A stretch of DNA of 60,008 bases from an uncultured Flavobacteriales bacterium (lineage in GTDB: Bacteria > Bacteroidota > Bacteroidia > Flavobacteriales_D > Sanyastnellaceae), in assembly GCA_905479395.1 (NCBI GenBank), contig CAJQMI010000039.1, forward strand, positions 1 through 60,008. Direction: 5' to 3'. Positions 26,022 through 53,121 of this stretch are shown one piece after another (the stretch's first letter is position 1; every line of letters begins with the position of its first letter). A model generated the notes under the pieces. That model did not search any database, was not told the origin of the DNA, and worked only from the letters and a program-made list of their open reading frames with translations. A program made the translations under genes and the position numbers.

Positions 26022-26061
26022 CACACCCAAAGCATATACTATACTATTGATATTATAATTG

Positions 26062-28083
26062 ATGTACGACATCATTGAACTCAATGCGAAGAAGGTCCTT
26101 GAACTCAAGGAAATCGCAAAAAAACTCGGAATCAGCCGACTTGAAAAACTGAAAAAGCAAGATCTTGTTTACAGCATTTTGGATGAGCAGGCATTAAGGC
26201 CTGGCGAAAACAAAAAAGCTCCTGTAAAGCCGAAATCTAAGCCTGCCTCATCTCGTGCCAAAAAAGATTCAACCGAGGACACAACCGAGGTAAAGTCTAA
26301 AAAGGCACCGTCACCAAGGCAACCGAAGAAAGATTCTTCGGATTCGAAAGCCAACGAATCGGCGGATAATTCCGAACAAAAAGGAAAACGCCAACCCGGT
26401 GACGCCATTCGGGAACGAAGGGCGAAACAAAACGCCAACAAAGAAGACAAGAACGCAGAAGATATCCGAAAGGGAGGCGACAAAGGGGATGTCACAGCAG
26501 AAAGCGGAGAATCCAAGAAACGAAACGACGACAGAGGCCGCGATGACAAGCGTCGCAATGACAAACGTCGCGACGACAAACCCCGCGACGACAAACGTCG
26601 CGACGACAAACCCCGCGACGACAAACCCCGCGACGAAAAACCCCGCGATGAAAAGCGCCGTGACGACAAGCCACGCGACGACAAGCGCCGTGACGACAAG
26701 CCACGCGACGACAAGCGCCGTGACGACAAGCCACGCGACGACAAGCGCCGTGACGACAAGCCTCGCGATGAAAAGCAGGGCGAGGAAAAGCAGGGCGATG
26801 AACGAGGAGATCGCAGGAACAATGATCGACGCACCAACGATCGACGAGACAACGATCGACGAGACAACGACCGACGAGGAAATGATCGACGTGGAAATGA
26901 CCGACGGGGCGGAAGAAACGATCGCAAGGACCGTTACTTAAGTGAGCCAGAAGAACATGGATTCAATTTTGATGGCATCATCACAGCAGAAGGTGTTCTA
27001 GAAATACAAACAGAAGGGTTTGGCTTCCTACGCTCTGCGGATTATAATTACCTGAATTCGCCTGATGACGTTTATATCACGTCGCGCCAGATTAAACAGT
27101 ATTCCCTGCAAACGGGTGATACAGTAATCGCCAAAGTACGTCCTCCTCGTTTGGGCGAGAAGTTCTACCCGTTGATTGATGTAATGAGCATCAATGGGCG
27201 TTCTCCAGAGTGGGTTCGTGATCGCATTCCCTTCAAGTTCCTTACACCGCTTTTCCCTCAAGAAAAGTTCAAACTGAGCACGCGCGGAGGAAACATCAGC
27301 ACGCGACTCATGGACCTTTTTGCGCCCATCGGCAAAGGACAGCGCGGCATGCTTGTATCACAGCCAAAGACGGGTAAAACAACACTTCTCAAGGATGTAG
27401 CCAATGCCATTGCCCTCAATCATCCCGAGGTATATTTATTGATTTTGCTCATCGACGAACGTCCTGAAGAAGTGACGGACATGAAGCGAAGTGTCAATGC
27501 AGAGGTCATTGCATCAACATTCGACGAACCTGCTGATCGGCACGTACGCATCGCCGATCTTGTTTTGGAAAAAGCGAAGCGCATGGTAGAGTGCGGGCAC
27601 GACGTCTGTATTCTGCTTGATTCCATCACCCGATTGGCACGAGCATACAACACCGTTTCTCCTAGTTCAGGTAAAATCCTGAGTGGAGGTGTCGAAGCGA
27701 ATGCATTGCAAAAACCAAAGCGTTTCTTTGGAGCTGCTCGAAACATCGAGAATGGCGGATCGCTGTCAATTATTTCAACTGCACTCACCGAGACTGGCTC
27801 AAAAATGGACGAAGTTATTTTTGAGGAATTCAAAGGTACAGGCAACATGGAATTGCAGCTTGACCGCCGTATTTCAAATCGTCGCATCTACCCTGCAATC
27901 GACATTCTATCATCAGGAACGCGTCGCGAGGATTTGCTCATGGACAAAGAAACACTGCAACGGATTTGGATTTTAAGAAAGCATTTGGCAGACATGAATT
28001 CTGTTGAAGCCATGGAGTTCATGAAAGACCGAATGGAGCAAACCCGCAGCAATGAAGACTTTTTATCTTCAATGAATGGATAA
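26062..28083 (+). CDS. rho: transcription termination factor Rho with long charged disordered insertion
   Basis: 673 residues from the ATG at 26062 (a TTG codon lies just before it), against about 420 for E. coli Rho. The Rho-N helix domain is at about 1-45 ([22 protein letters not shown] in part). A charged low-complexity region at about 50-290 is dominated by Arg, Asp, Lys and Pro in repeats such as [10 protein letters not shown]. The RNA-binding OSB domain follows ([27 protein letters not shown]). The ATPase core is intact: Walker [13 protein letters not shown], Walker B-type [16 protein letters not shown]-loop region SGGVEANAL, and [11 protein letters not shown]. It terminates untranslated transcripts as a hexamer. 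The insertion is typical of Bacteroidota Rho. Confidence 0.97.
26656..26760 (+). repeat. rho: 30-bp tandem repeat inside rho
   Basis: Three perfect 30-bp copies (26656-26685, 26686-26715, 26716-26745) and a 15-bp partial copy encode [10 protein letters not shown]. Degenerate copies of the same unit extend upstream to about 26536, and a related R-R-x-N-D unit follows to about 26915. Identical codons between copies indicate recent in-frame expansion. Confidence 0.93.
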
Positions 28084-34988: not shown

Positions 34989-36287
34989 ATGACACCGGGA
35001 GGAACTGCAGCATTTCACACCTTAGGGTGCAAGTTAAATTTTAGCGAAACTTCGACCATCGCTCGTGATTTAGCGAATGCTGGTTACGCTCGTGTTGGAA
35101 TTGACGATGCGCCAGATGTTGTTGTCATCAATACGTGCAGTGTGACAGATCAAGCTGACGCAAAATGCCGAAATGCTGTGCGTCGCGCTCGAAACGGAAA
35201 TCCCAGCGCCTTTGTCGCCGTCGTGGGATGCTACGCACAATTGAAGCCACAAGAAATAGCCGAAATTGACGGTGTGAACCTCGTACTTGGCGCACAAGAA
35301 AAGTTCAACTTACCCGAGCATTTAAAAGCTATGGAACAAGAAGATGCGACTGCCATTCAAGTAAATCCCATCAAGGAGGTCAAGGCTTTTGTCCCCGGGT
35401 TCTCAAGCAACGATCGCACGCGAGCCTTTTTAAAGGTGCAAGATGGCTGCGACTACTTCTGTTCATTTTGCACGATTCCACTCGCACGAGGTCGATCTCG
35501 AAATGCGTCCATAAGCGAAACGTTAGAAATCGCCGAAAAAGCGGCTCATTCCGGCGCCAAAGAAATTGTTCTTACCGGTGTTAACATCGGTGATTTTGGC
35601 AAAACAACAGGCGAATCTTTTCGAGACCTCGTTCAAGCCCTCGACGAAAAAATAAAAGTACCGCGCATTCGAATTAGCAGCATCGAGCCCAACTTGCTGG
35701 ATGAGACAATCATTGACTTTGTGAGTCGAAGCAGACGATTCCAACCCCATTTCCACATTCCGCTGCAGAGTGGATCAGATCGGATTTTAAAATCCATGCG
35801 CAGACGTTATCGCACAGATCTGTATGCTGAGCGCATTGTGCGAATTCGCCAAAACATGCCACTAGCGAGCGTTGGTGTAGATGTCATTACCGGTTTTCCG
35901 GGAGAAGATGAAGATGCCTTCCAAGAAACTTACTCTTTTTTGCAGGAACTTCCCATCAGTTATCTGCATGTCTTTACTTACTCGGAACGCGATAAAACAA
36001 CAGCGATAAGAATCGAAGATTCAGTGCCCGTGCACGTTCGAAAAGAAAGGACCAAAATCCTGAGAACACTTTCGCTCAAGAAACAACGGGCGCACTATGA
36101 ACAATTTCTTCATGCTACGCGCGATGTATTGTTCGAAGACTCCACAGAGGATGGCCTTCGTTTTGGCTACACGCCAGAGTACGTGAGAGTCGGTGTGGAT
36201 GAATCCTCCGTGGCCGCCAACGAAATTGCTCAAGTCCAACTCACCGCTATCCGAGCGAATGGTTTCATGCATGGTTCACGCACGTAA
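34989..36287 (+). CDS. mtaB: tRNA t6A37 methylthiotransferase MtaB
   Basis: 432 residues, normal length. It adds a methylthio group to t6A at position 37 of tRNAs reading ANN codons, giving ms2t6A. The N-terminal UPF0004 domain carries the three cluster cysteines (TLGCKLNFSE, INTCSVTDQAD, VVGCYAQ). The radical-SAM motif is CDYFCSFCTIP (C-x3-C-x2-C), and a C-terminal TRAM-like domain follows at about 370-432. Motifs IRISSIEP, HFHIPLQSGSD and DVITGFPGE are typical of the MiaB/MtaB family. LGCKLN, rather than the MiaB-type GCQMN, points to MtaB. The N-terminal motif begins within 12 residues, so the start codon is well supported. Confidence 0.93.
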   Translation: MTPGGTAAFHTLGCKLNFSETSTIARDLANAGYARVGIDDAPDVVVINTCSVTDQADAKCRNAVRRARNGNPSAFVAVVGCYAQLKPQEIAEIDGVNLVLGAQEKFNLPEHLKAMEQEDATAIQVNPIKEVKAFVPGFSSNDRTRAFLKVQDGCDYFCSFCTIPLARGRSRNASISETLEIAEKAAHSGAKEIVLTGVNIGDFGKTTGESFRDLVQALDEKIKVPRIRISSIEPNLLDETIIDFVSRSRRFQPHFHIPLQSGSDRILKSMRRRYRTDLYAERIVRIRQNMPLASVGVDVITGFPGEDEDAFQETYSFLQELPISYLHVFTYSERDKTTAIRIEDSVPVHVRKERTKILRTLSLKKQRAHYEQFLHATRDVLFEDSTEDGLRFGYTPEYVRVGVDESSVAANEIAQVQLTAIRANGFMHGSRT

Positions 36288-49101: not shown

Positions 49102-50196
49102 ATGAACGAAGCGACTGCCCAAAACACAAAAACTGCTTTGCATCAAAACCACATTGATGCAGGAGCTAAGATGGTCCCTTTTGCTGGCTTTGAAATGCCT
49201 GTTTCCTATGCCGGATTGGTGCAGGAACATCATGCTGTCAGGCAGTCATGTGGAATGTTTGACGTTTCACACATGGGCGAATTTCGCGTAAGTGGTCCTC
49301 AATCACTCGAATTGATCCAATGGATAACGACCAACGATGTCAGCAAACTACACCCGGGAAAAGTCCAGTACAGCTGCATGCCAAATGGACAGGGTGGCAT
49401 CGTTGACGACTTATTGGTTTACTGCATTGATGAAGAGGAATACATGTTGGTGGTAAATGCCTCCAACCGTCAAAAAGATTGGGAATGGATTGCATCTCAA
49501 AATCGATGGAACGCAACGGTAGCAGATGAATCTGATGAATGGTCACTCATCGCTGTCCAAGGACCAAAAGCATCGGATGCCCTGCAGCCTCTTGTGCAAG
49601 AATCTGGCATCGCCGAAATGGCCTACTATACTTTCCAACAAGCGACCATCGCAGGTCAAAAAGTCTTACTTAGCGCAACGGGCTATACGGGCGCTGGAGG
49701 CTTCGAAATATACCTGCACAACAACCATGCTCAAAAAGTTTGGGAAGAGCTGCTAGCTGCTGGTGTGGAACCGTGTGGATTAGGCGCAAGGGATACACTT
49801 CGCATGGAAGCTGGGTTTTGTCTCTACGGCAACGACATCGACGAAAACACCTCTCCCATTGCCGCTGGACTCGGATGGATCACCAAATTCAACGATGAAT
49901 TTGTCGATAGCATGCGCTTCGCGAAAGAAAAAGAAACTGGGTCGACGCAGCTGCTCAGAGGGCTCGTGCTCGAAGAACGCGGCATACCTCGACAAGGCTA
50001 TGACATCGAATCTGCCTCCGGAAAAATCATCGGCAAGGTCACAAGCGGCACCCAGTCCCCAACACTTGGCAAAGGAATAGCAATGGGTTACATCAATCGA
50101 GAGCACGCTGGACTTCACGAAATTGTATGGATACGCATTCGCAAAAAAACAATTCCTGCAAAGGTCACCCGTCCCGGATTCTTACCCAAAGCTTGA
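49102..50196 (+). CDS. gcvT: aminomethyltransferase (glycine cleavage T protein)
   Basis: 364 residues, normal length. It transfers the methylene group from the H protein's aminomethyl-lipoyl arm to tetrahydrofolate and releases ammonia. Visible motifs are MVPFAGFEMPVSYAGLVQEHHAVR, FDVSHMGEFRVSGP, the folate-site GGIVDDLLVY, TGYTGAGGFEIYL, GLGARDTLRMEAGFCLYGND and VTSGTQSPTLGKGIAMGY. All mapped catalytic-type residues, including the Asp of the ARDTLR segment, are in place. The other glycine cleavage genes are not in this window. It starts 9 nt after the WbqC-like gene. Confidence 0.96.
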   Translation: MNEATAQNTKTALHQNHIDAGAKMVPFAGFEMPVSYAGLVQEHHAVRQSCGMFDVSHMGEFRVSGPQSLELIQWITTNDVSKLHPGKVQYSCMPNGQGGIVDDLLVYCIDEEEYMLVVNASNRQKDWEWIASQNRWNATVADESDEWSLIAVQGPKASDALQPLVQESGIAEMAYYTFQQATIAGQKVLLSATGYTGAGGFEIYLHNNHAQKVWEELLAAGVEPCGLGARDTLRMEAGFCLYGNDIDENTSPIAAGLGWITKFNDEFVDSMRFAKEKETGSTQLLRGLVLEERGIPRQGYDIESASGKIIGKVTSGTQSPTLGKGIAMGYINREHAGLHEIVWIRIRKKTIPAKVTRPGFLPKA

Positions 50197-50289
50197 TTTC
50201 AAAGGCATTCCGTATCTTCGGGGTGCTCAGCGCTAAGCTTGGCATATCATTCAAATCGCAATGCTATTCTATCCCAGAAGAAAAAATCT

Positions 50290-51063
50290 ATGAACCACGT
50301 TGAAGTATGCTTTTCACCTGCCGATTACGCTTTGTATGAATCAGGGTTTGACTTGGTGGTAGTCATTGACGTTTTGAGAGCCACATCTGCCATTTGCACT
50401 GCTCTGGAAAATGGCGTTGCGCGCATTAAACCCGTTGCGCAAGTCGAAGAAGCAAGGGAATGGCAAAGCAAAGGATTCATAGCCGCAGCGGAACGCAACG
50501 GTGAAATTGTCCCGGGATTTGACATGGGCAACAGCCCCGTCACGTTCATGGAAAAGGCAGCGCAGCTTAAAGGCAAAACGGTGGTATTAACCACGACGAA
50601 TGGCACCAAAGCAATCGATATCGCTTCTGATAAAAAAACTGTGGTCATCGGTGCATTGAACAACCTTGATGCACTCAGCAATTGGCTTTTGCAACAAGAT
50701 GAAAACGTGCTAATTCTTGGTTCGGGCTGGAAAGACAAGTTTAATCTTGAAGACACAATTTGTGCAGGTGCGATTGCCGACCAATTGCTTGGCTCAGGAA
50801 AGTTCATCGCAGACGAAGACAGCACGGTAGCTGCCAAATTCATCTACCGCTCTGCACGAGACAACATGTTTGCTTTTTTAAAAGCATCCTCGCATCGACG
50901 AAGATTGCGAAAGCTAAACTTGAACGAAGACGTGAAATACTGCCTTACGCCCAACAATGTGACAACCATTCCTATCTTAAAAGATGGATTTTTGGTGCCA
51001 TTGAATGAAGCTGAAACGCCATCCCGAACACTCCCTGCTGAGCAGGCCTCATTGGCTCGTTGA
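50290..51063 (+). CDS. comB: 2-phosphosulfolactate phosphatase family protein (ComB-like)
   Basis: 257 residues from the ATG at 50290 (MNHVEVCFSPADYALY); an in-frame start at 50239 would add residues outside the family. Family motifs: VVVIDVLRATSAICTALENG, AERNGEIVPGFDMGNSP, VVLTTTNGTKAID, NVLILGSGWKDKFNLEDTICAGAIAD (in part). ComB removes phosphate from phosphosulfolactate in coenzyme M synthesis in archaea. Many bacteria without methanogenesis carry it. No comA is nearby, so the product could be sulfolactate for another sulfonate route. Its 3' end overlaps the next gene by 59 nt. Confidence 0.85.
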   Translation: MNHVEVCFSPADYALYESGFDLVVVIDVLRATSAICTALENGVARIKPVAQVEEAREWQSKGFIAAAERNGEIVPGFDMGNSPVTFMEKAAQLKGKTVVLTTTNGTKAIDIASDKKTVVIGALNNLDALSNWLLQQDENVLILGSGWKDKFNLEDTICAGAIADQLLGSGKFIADEDSTVAAKFIYRSARDNMFAFLKASSHRRRLRKLNLNEDVKYCLTPNNVTTIPILKDGFLVPLNEAETPSRTLPAEQASLAR

Positions 51064-52024
51064 GGACTTTAACAAAAAGACTTTCACCAACGCTACGCCA
51101 TGCTTTAGGCGTTTCCTTCCTCTTCTTCTGTGCCCTCTCTCAATCGGTTGGGGATTTTCTGCGCATCGGAAAATTATAGATGTTGCGATTCAGCATGTAC
51201 CAGAACCGCTGCACAATTTCCTCAAAACAAACCGAGATTGGCTCGTCGAACACGCCCTAGACGCTGATCTACGCAAACACTCAGTCATTGGAGAAAGAGA
51301 GAGACATTACATCGATTTGGATGAATTTAGAAACCAGCACAGCGGGATGGAATGCATGCCGCCTGCAAATTGGAAACATGCTGTCAGTGAATTTGGAGAG
51401 GCAACACTGAGAGAACACGGGATTGGCCCTTGGAATGTCCAATGGCAATTCAATAAGCTCATCGAAGCATTTCGTCTCAAAGACAAGGATAGAATTCTCA
51501 GATGCACTGCAGATCTTGCTCACTACGTATCCGATTTGCATGTGCCTTTGCACACAACCAAAAACTACAACGGAGCCCTGACCGGACAACTCGGAATCCA
51601 TGCGCTTTGGGAAACTCAAATCCCCGAACTCAAAATGGATGCGTTCAATCTTTCGCGTCCTTTGAATTCGCCAATCTACAATCCCGCTTGTGCAGACTCG
51701 ATCTGGAGCGTTGTTCTGGATAGCCACGAATGCTTGATCCTGGTTTTTGGCGCAGAACGAGAAACCATGACTGAAATTGGAGAAGTGAATGCCTTTTCAT
51801 TCGCGGAGCGCGGCAGAGTGCGTCAAAAGGTGCGTTCAGAACAATTTCTACTTCGCTATTATCTCAAGTTAGATGGACAAGTTGAACGGCGCATGGTCGA
51901 TTCCATTCAAGCTTGTGCGATATTTTGGTATACTGCATGGGTACAAGCAGGGCAACCGCAGTTGCCCGCAGAAGAATCAGAAAAAAGACGCTTTTGCGCG
52001 ACAATTGAATGGCTCATGAATTAA
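51005..52024 (+). CDS. zinc-dependent phospholipase C/S1-P1-nuclease-like secreted protein
   Basis: 339 residues from the ATG at 51005, the only ATG near the 5' end. A hydrophobic stretch FLPLLLCPLSIGWG is followed by Trp then GFSAHRK, matching the mature N-terminal Trp that binds zinc in this fold. The other zinc ligands fit: HALDADLRKH, ERERHYIDLDE, then DLAHYVSDLHVPLHTTKNYNG and LGIHALWETQIPEL. This fold cuts phospholipids or nucleic acids. The signal peptide has a long 35-residue N-region, and the start lies 59 nt inside comB, which is unusual. The next gene overlaps by 16 nt. Confidence 0.83.
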   Translation: MKLKRHPEHSLLSRPHWLVEDFNKKTFTNATPCFRRFLPLLLCPLSIGWGFSAHRKIIDVAIQHVPEPLHNFLKTNRDWLVEHALDADLRKHSVIGERERHYIDLDEFRNQHSGMECMPPANWKHAVSEFGEATLREHGIGPWNVQWQFNKLIEAFRLKDKDRILRCTADLAHYVSDLHVPLHTTKNYNGALTGQLGIHALWETQIPELKMDAFNLSRPLNSPIYNPACADSIWSVVLDSHECLILVFGAERETMTEIGEVNAFSFAERGRVRQKVRSEQFLLRYYLKLDGQVERRMVDSIQACAIFWYTAWVQAGQPQLPAEESEKRRFCATIEWLMN

Positions 52025-53121
52025 ATGTTCTCATCCTAAATCCGTTTCACGGCGGTTCACATGCCCAGTGGGCGGATGCATTGCAACAAAACTGGGGAGG
52101 ATTGAAGAATCGAAAAATAAGCTTGTTGACTCTGCCGGGAAGGCATTGGAAGTGGCGTATGCACGCAGCAAGTGCTGAATTTGCTCGGCAATGTGCATTA
52201 ACAACCACGCTTCCTCATGCCATCATTTGCACAGATATGATGGATGTTGCCACGTTCAAAGGAATGCTCCGGAAAGATTGGGCCGGTGTCCCCATCGTTC
52301 AGTACTTCCATGAAAATCAAATTACATTTCCCTGGAGCCCTGCAGATAAGGACGCACAAACTGGTCGGGACCGAACGTATGGAATGATGAACATCCTTTC
52401 AGCAATGGCGTCGGATGCAATCTGGTTTAATTCCCATTTTCATCGGAAAAAGTTTCTGGATGCAATCCCGAAATTCATGCACCCGATGCCGGATGAAAAG
52501 CTTGTGTTTTCGGAACATCCATTCGAAAAGAAATCGAGCGTCGTCCCCATTGGCATTGCATACCCTGAGAACGTTGATGCCCAGAGGAAATGCAATGATG
52601 CGCCGACAATTTTGTGGAATCACCGCTGGGAATTTGATAAAGCACCTGAGTTCCTTCTCAATGCTTTGAGGGACTTCGAGGCCCATGGTTTATCGTTTTC
52701 CCTCATTCTTACAGGGCCTCAATTTTCCTCCACTCCTCCAGCACTGGATCAAATCGTGTCAAACTTTCAAGCGAACATCATCCATCAAGGATATTGCGAA
52801 AACCGAAAGGATTATCAGCAACTCTTGATGAGAAGTGATTTTGTAATTCACTCACCGAAGCAAGAGTATTTTGGAATCAGTATTTTAGAGGCATTGGCAC
52901 ATGGCGTCATCCCCATATTGGGCAGAGGAAATGCCTATGACGATTGGTGCCAAGAGAAATTCTTGGTAGATGACGCCAAAACGCTCCGCTGCCGCTTTCA
53001 AGAATTTTCGAGAGAACCGACACCGCATCGAAATGATGCTCGAAAAATCGCCAAACAATTCAAGTGGGAAGAAGTGATACGGCTATACGACTCAGCCCTT
53101 ATTTCATTGCTGAAGGGTTGA
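52009..53121 (+). CDS. DUF3524 glycosyltransferase, tRNA-queuosine mannosyltransferase (QTMAN/GTDC1)-like
   Basis: 370 residues. The N-terminal DUF3524 half shows ILNPFHGGSHAQWADAL, YFHENQITFPWSPADKD and YGMMNILSAMASDAIWFNS, closely matching the pattern of animal GTDC1. The C-terminal GT4-type half has ILWNHRWEFDKAPEF, HQGYCENRKDYQQLLMRSDFVIHS and EYFGISILEALAHGVIPIL, including the EFFGxxxLEA-type motif that binds the sugar nucleotide. The human protein mannosylates queuosine at position 34 of tRNA-Asp. A tRNA or related acceptor is inferred for this one. No Q-biosynthesis genes are in the window. It starts within the last 16 nt of the phospholipase-like gene. Confidence 0.87.
   Translation: MAHELNVLILNPFHGGSHAQWADALQQNWGGLKNRKISLLTLPGRHWKWRMHAASAEFARQCALTTTLPHAIICTDMMDVATFKGMLRKDWAGVPIVQYFHENQITFPWSPADKDAQTGRDRTYGMMNILSAMASDAIWFNSHFHRKKFLDAIPKFMHPMPDEKLVFSEHPFEKKSSVVPIGIAYPENVDAQRKCNDAPTILWNHRWEFDKAPEFLLNALRDFEAHGLSFSLILTGPQFSSTPPALDQIVSNFQANIIHQGYCENRKDYQQLLMRSDFVIHSPKQEYFGISILEALAHGVIPILGRGNAYDDWCQEKFLVDDAKTLRCRFQEFSREPTPHRNDARKIAKQFKWEEVIRLYDSALISLLKG

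Follow-up and report, generated by a model that had tools for sequence, protein, structure and literature searches.

The question raised by the locus described here is whether a glycosyltransferase named for its action on queuosine (Q) in animal tRNA has a bacterial relative that carries out comparable chemistry. As described in papers citing Zhao et al. (2023, PMID 37992713), animal QTMAN (GTDC1) is the tRNA-queuosine alpha-mannosyltransferase, and its acceptor is tRNA-Asp (PMC12518689, PMC8654956). A 2020 review (PMC7694415) does not assign ManQ to bacteria, and no report of mannosyl-queuosine or of QTMAN activity in bacteria was found in a search of the open-access literature. The window, by which is meant the whole 60,008-nucleotide stretch of DNA analysed here, comes from an uncultured Flavobacteriales bacterium, and an earlier note had proposed that one of its genes is a homologue of the animal enzyme, implying glycosylated queuosine or a related tRNA modification in this lineage. 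Table 1 collects the relevant features.

Table 1 Features of the window discussed in the text; residue numbers refer to the QTMAN-family protein.
Feature	Position	Strand	Basis
Rho factor	26059..28083		
MtaB	34989..36287		
GcvT-like gene, syntenic in Flavobacteriales loci	49102..50196	+	named from its sequence, synteny
2-phosphosulfolactate phosphatase family gene, syntenic	50239..51063	+	Pfam, synteny
Upstream gene, no Pfam match; adjoins QTMAN in Flavobacteriales (conserved)	51005..52024	+	ORF list, Pfam, synteny
QTMAN-family GT4 (GT-B) glycosyltransferase, 370 aa	52009..53121	+	Pfam PF12038 + Glycos_transf_1, AlphaFold, PDB relatives
GGSH motif, residues 15-18	52051..52062	+	sequence, alignment
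YFHENQ motif, residues 99-104	52303..52320	+	sequence, alignment
WNHRWEFDK, residues 203-211, mostly invariant	52615..52641	+	alignment
EX7E motif, E286-E294 (EYFGISILE)	52864..52890	+	sequence, alignment
GNAYDDW, residues 307-313; most of family: xLxYPE	52927..52947	+	alignment

The open reading frame is real, starting with ATG and overlapping the preceding gene by its first 16 bases, and the family to which it had been assigned is the right one, since the product has a full-length QTMAN_N domain followed by a GT4-type C-terminal domain. The Pfam model QTMAN_N (PF12038, ‘tRNA-queuosine alpha-mannosyltransferase N-terminal’) matches over its entire length (1-168/168) on residues 6-183 with E 2.9e-52 and a score of 177.3 bits, the curated cut-off being 25 bits, while Glycos_transf_1 covers residues 192-311 (E 4.4e-8); no NCBIfam equivalog fits. 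The three motifs picked out in the earlier note, GGSH, YFHENQ and the EX7E stretch (which we take to be the motif of retaining GT4 enzymes), are all present and belong to the best-conserved parts of the homologue alignment. Across 59 homologues S17, H18, R50, H101, Q104, N204, R206, W207, D210 and K211 are all invariant (H18 of GGSH is invariant across alignment A1), and the window protein keeps every one of the near-invariant family residues, namely GSH, WKWRM, HENQ and WNHRWExDK. A match to the QTMAN pattern along the whole length had also been claimed, which holds for QTMAN_N but not for the LxYPE element that follows EX7E, replaced here by GNAYDDW; LxYPE is common in the bacterial members examined, carries no published requirement and was not treated as defining. 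Set beside the animal enzyme, the window protein is alike in having a full-length QTMAN_N and a GT4 C-terminal domain (by Pfam model) together with GGSH, YFHENQ and EX7E, and unlike it in being bacterial and in having GNAYDDW for LxYPE. Judged by its sequence, then, it is a member of the QTMAN family, tied to animal QTMAN via the Pfam model, and the gene adds one member to a broad, patchy bacterial family to which Pfam had already given a name.

An AlphaFold model built on alignment A1 (pLDDT 94.4, pTM 0.91) confidently predicts a GT-B fold. GT4 enzymes figure among its best GT-B matches in the PDB, with sucrose-phosphate synthase at Z 31.4, followed by MshA, BshA and GlgM, and with GDP-mannose-bound PimB' (3oka) at Z 25.6; PimA-type GDP-mannose enzymes (2gej, 4n9w) are weak matches by profile. 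PimA and PimB', which are GDP-mannose GT4 enzymes, share the retaining GT-B fold and resemble the C-terminal half of the window protein weakly by profile, but they act on phosphatidylinositol lipids and leave the QTMAN_N half unmatched save for a short overlap. A sequence search found no solved QTMAN structure. The fold tells us the class of chemistry, not the acceptor.

For the acceptor we turn to the genomes, beginning with that of the host. The earlier note had pointed to tgt and queG or queH as the genes to look for, and in part they are there: the genome has TGT (G000:C108) and QueG as well as two matches to QueA, while QueH, and also QueC, were not found in what is a 90% complete genome, so that their absence may be a gap. 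Matches to QueC near E 1e-5 were read as other ATP-pyrophosphatases (they are short and partial) and left uncounted. Because tgt, queA and queG are all encoded, the host should on this showing make queuosine; its TGT has the pocket GGLSVGE, of the preQ1 type, and in the simplest reading the route probably runs from salvaged preQ0 or preQ1 through TGT, QueA and QueG. In this the host differs from eukaryotes, which import queuine, whereas it has queA and queG with which to make Q. QueA is also present in all four close relatives. The host genome and many other Bacteroidota have two QueA-family matches each, the second of them weaker. MtaB, which had been cited as evidence of an active set of anticodon-loop modifications, is indeed encoded in the window; it acts on t6A37, a different pathway, and is silent on queuosine.

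The family is widespread but patchily so. QTMAN_N occurs in 58 of 218 genomes (27 of 111 genera) of the Bacteroidota, the window's own phylum, in 14/151 Chloroflexota genomes and in 34/237 of a Desulfobacterota-type phylum (that of G231), and in none of 14 control genomes, E. coli among them. A protein search gave 292 related stretches, and Spirochaetota, Bacillota, Planctomycetota, KSB1 and Neomarinimicrobiota are all represented in the best 80; the carriers include named isolates, Citrifermentans, Geomonas, Oceanirhabdus, Maledivibacter and Desulfonema. In one Bacteroidota family (f22; L121-L127, L002-L013) 15 genomes carry a pair of QTMAN homologues that come from distant branches; of the two, the second has a MutL-like gene nearby and the change K211R.

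Does possession of the gene track queuosine? When carriers from different phyla are taken together, QueA is present in 37 of 44, some of the remainder being small MAGs. Within the Bacteroidota a co-occurrence test has no power, QueA being present in 217/218 genomes. The Chloroflexota are more informative, and it is their pattern that, indirectly, speaks best for a role in queuosine modification. Ten of the 14 carriers there are without QueA, which is above expectation (p 0.005) and at first sight contrary to such a role. Yet all ten have TGT, as against 6/12 of the QueA-less non-carriers (one-sided Fisher 0.012, uncorrected for kinship; eight of the ten fall in one clade of the tree). The TGT pocket in these carriers reads GGSLG in 10/10 cases (L145-L154), while in the three QueA-containing Chloroflexota carriers having TGT it reads GGL[SA]VG. 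Queuine-inserting TGTs are reported to read, typically, GG[LS][AS]G, in which the bulky valine is missing (PMC11570991), and GGSLG shares with these the glycine in place of valine while differing at one residue (L for A/S). A pocket of the queuine type in all ten means that Q is possible without QueA, and these carriers probably obtain it directly by salvaging queuine. Four of these Chloroflexota genomes hold, in addition, a second and divergent TGT-family gene (L155-L158) in which the pocket stretch is GFGFGGWPLD.

TGT itself is present in 23 of the 29 carriers tested, with no match in the other six (G147, G195, G199, G247, G227 and G239). Three of these, G147 (L115), G195 (L116) and G199 (L139), are about 99% complete, belong to a single Bacteroidota family (f34) and have QueA but not TGT, QueG or a true QueC. 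In their QTMAN proteins the near-invariant His18 of GGSH has become Arg, with further losses in G199, a change that would fit loss of selection on the original activity in a family without TGT. The link can only be called suggestive, because His18 has also been lost in G018, G073 and G013, carriers that do not belong to the 29 in the TGT count. On the whole, then, the proposal of queuosine glycosylation finds good co-occurrence with Q genes behind it, which is nonetheless imperfect, and it concerns a clade that departs from a conserved motif of its family.

Two alternatives bear on what the protein modifies. It could be a QTMAN-family GT4 enzyme acting on some other bacterial acceptor, such as a glycolipid, glycan, small molecule or protein, with the activity on Q-tRNA in animals a specialisation that arose later or separately. 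The range of acceptors used by GT4 enzymes is very wide, and the nearest solved folds serve the synthesis of sucrose-phosphate, bacillithiol, mycothiol and glycans; the carriers without TGT point the same way, as does gene context, where in over 120 loci none of the que genes (TGT, QueA, QueG, QueH, QueC) lies near a QTMAN copy, and where 79 same-strand neighbours yield no recurrent operon partner, the top counts being four methyltransferases and three glycosyltransferases; a few carriers do have such genes adjoining. Against such an acceptor stand the ten QueA-less Chloroflexota carriers, every one of which keeps a TGT with a queuine-type pocket, the disappearance of an invariant His in the TGT-less family f34, and a distinctive N-terminal domain that Pfam names after a tRNA-queuosine enzyme, and we consider this alternative unlikely, if by no means negligible.

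It could also be that Q34 is indeed glycosylated, with a sugar, or on a GUN tRNA (Asn, His or Tyr), other than that of the animal enzyme. Animals already have two sugars on two tRNAs (PMC12518689), the second enzyme being QTGAL, the queuosine galactosyltransferase, which (compared here by description) likewise glycosylates Q34, in its case on tRNA-Tyr, and which differs in using galactose, the homoallylic hydroxyl and a beta linkage (PMC12518689). The motif directly after EX7E is changed in the window clade, and there is the matter of GluQRS (YadB), the glutamyl-Q34 tRNA-Asp synthetase, which like the proposed QTMAN activity decorates Q34 in bacteria but is a relative of the aminoacyl-tRNA synthetases that attaches glutamate, and as a protein is unrelated to QTMAN. 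GluQRS in bacteria uses Q34 of tRNA-Asp. If QTMAN always competed for that nucleotide, the two enzymes should exclude one another, yet in the Desulfobacterota-type phylum QTMAN is found in 6/30 genomes with GluQRS against 28/207 others (p 0.40), and since the two do not avoid each other it follows that tRNA-Asp must not be assumed. GluQ and GluQRS are both named in the review cited above (PMC7694415). For all that, no positive evidence favours any other sugar or tRNA, and the remaining conserved residues are those of the family, so a departure of this kind from the animal enzyme seems to us improbable.

The peculiarities of the window clade deserve separate comment. In the tree the window protein clusters on a long stem with proteins from four Flavobacteriales MAGs (59-70% identity), its identity to the remaining A1 members being 31-38%, and the loss of LxYPE in favour of GNAYDDW is common to it and these four close relatives (L014-L017). 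A long stem and a lost motif are what might be expected of a decaying or non-functional relic. Against this, differences between the window gene and its 70%-identical relative L014 fall 88/55/201 by codon position, so the frame is under purifying selection; every other invariant residue is kept, the fold is confidently modelled and synteny is conserved in several Flavobacteriales, and decay is accordingly a very remote prospect. The order GcvT-like gene, 2-phosphosulfolactate phosphatase, upstream gene, QTMAN is common to the window, L047, L117 and others, of which L047 and L117 (the latter in a genome of the window's own family) keep the usual family motifs, and we take the window QTMAN to be no separate gene but that very gene, changed by rapid evolution within a single lineage. 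Horizontal transfer of a distinct subfamily was considered as the source of the long branch and is less likely, given that the gene order matches that of these canonical members. A mobile or viral origin was also considered; there was no match in plasmids and none confirmed in viral contigs, and the gene is chromosomal as well as syntenic.

Weighing in favour of a Q34 role are the full-length QTMAN_N, the retained near-invariant residues, the PimB'/PimA relatives, TGT, QueA and QueG in the host, QueA in 37/44 carriers, the Chloroflexota TGTs, His18Arg in f34 and the chromosomal, syntenic setting; weighing against it are the TGT-less carriers (6/29), the want of que neighbours or an operon partner, the lack of GluQRS exclusion, the long stem and LxYPE loss of the window clade, and the concentration of 8/10 Chloroflexota cases in one clade. 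On balance we lean, by no great measure, towards the window protein being a QTMAN-family retaining GT-B enzyme that puts a hexose, most likely mannose, on Q34 of one or more GUN tRNAs. TGT, QueA and QueG would in that event first generate Q34 from a salvaged precursor, after which the hexose, most likely mannose from GDP-mannose, would move to a hydroxyl of the queuosine cyclopentenediol at position 34. We infer Q34-tRNA as the acceptor from the evidence just listed; mannose, the GDP donor, tRNA-Asp and the allylic 3-OH would be carried over, by analogy, purely from the animal enzyme, and exactly manQ on tRNA-Asp must be rated lower than an animal-type Q34-tRNA glycosyltransferase in general.

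On a wider view, it seems to us an evenly poised proposition that many bacteria from several phyla have glycosylated Q in their tRNA, that the animal enzyme comes from an older, mainly bacterial family, and that the window clade, with its changed motif, has perhaps changed its sugar or its tRNA. Were the activity to be confirmed, bacteria would join animals in having hexosyl-queuosine as a wobble modification, the named isolates among the carriers would allow study of its purpose, and the question would arise of whether animal QTMAN came from the bacterial family. Elsewhere in the window, the Rho factor is 674 aa long, some 260 residues beyond the 413-residue model.
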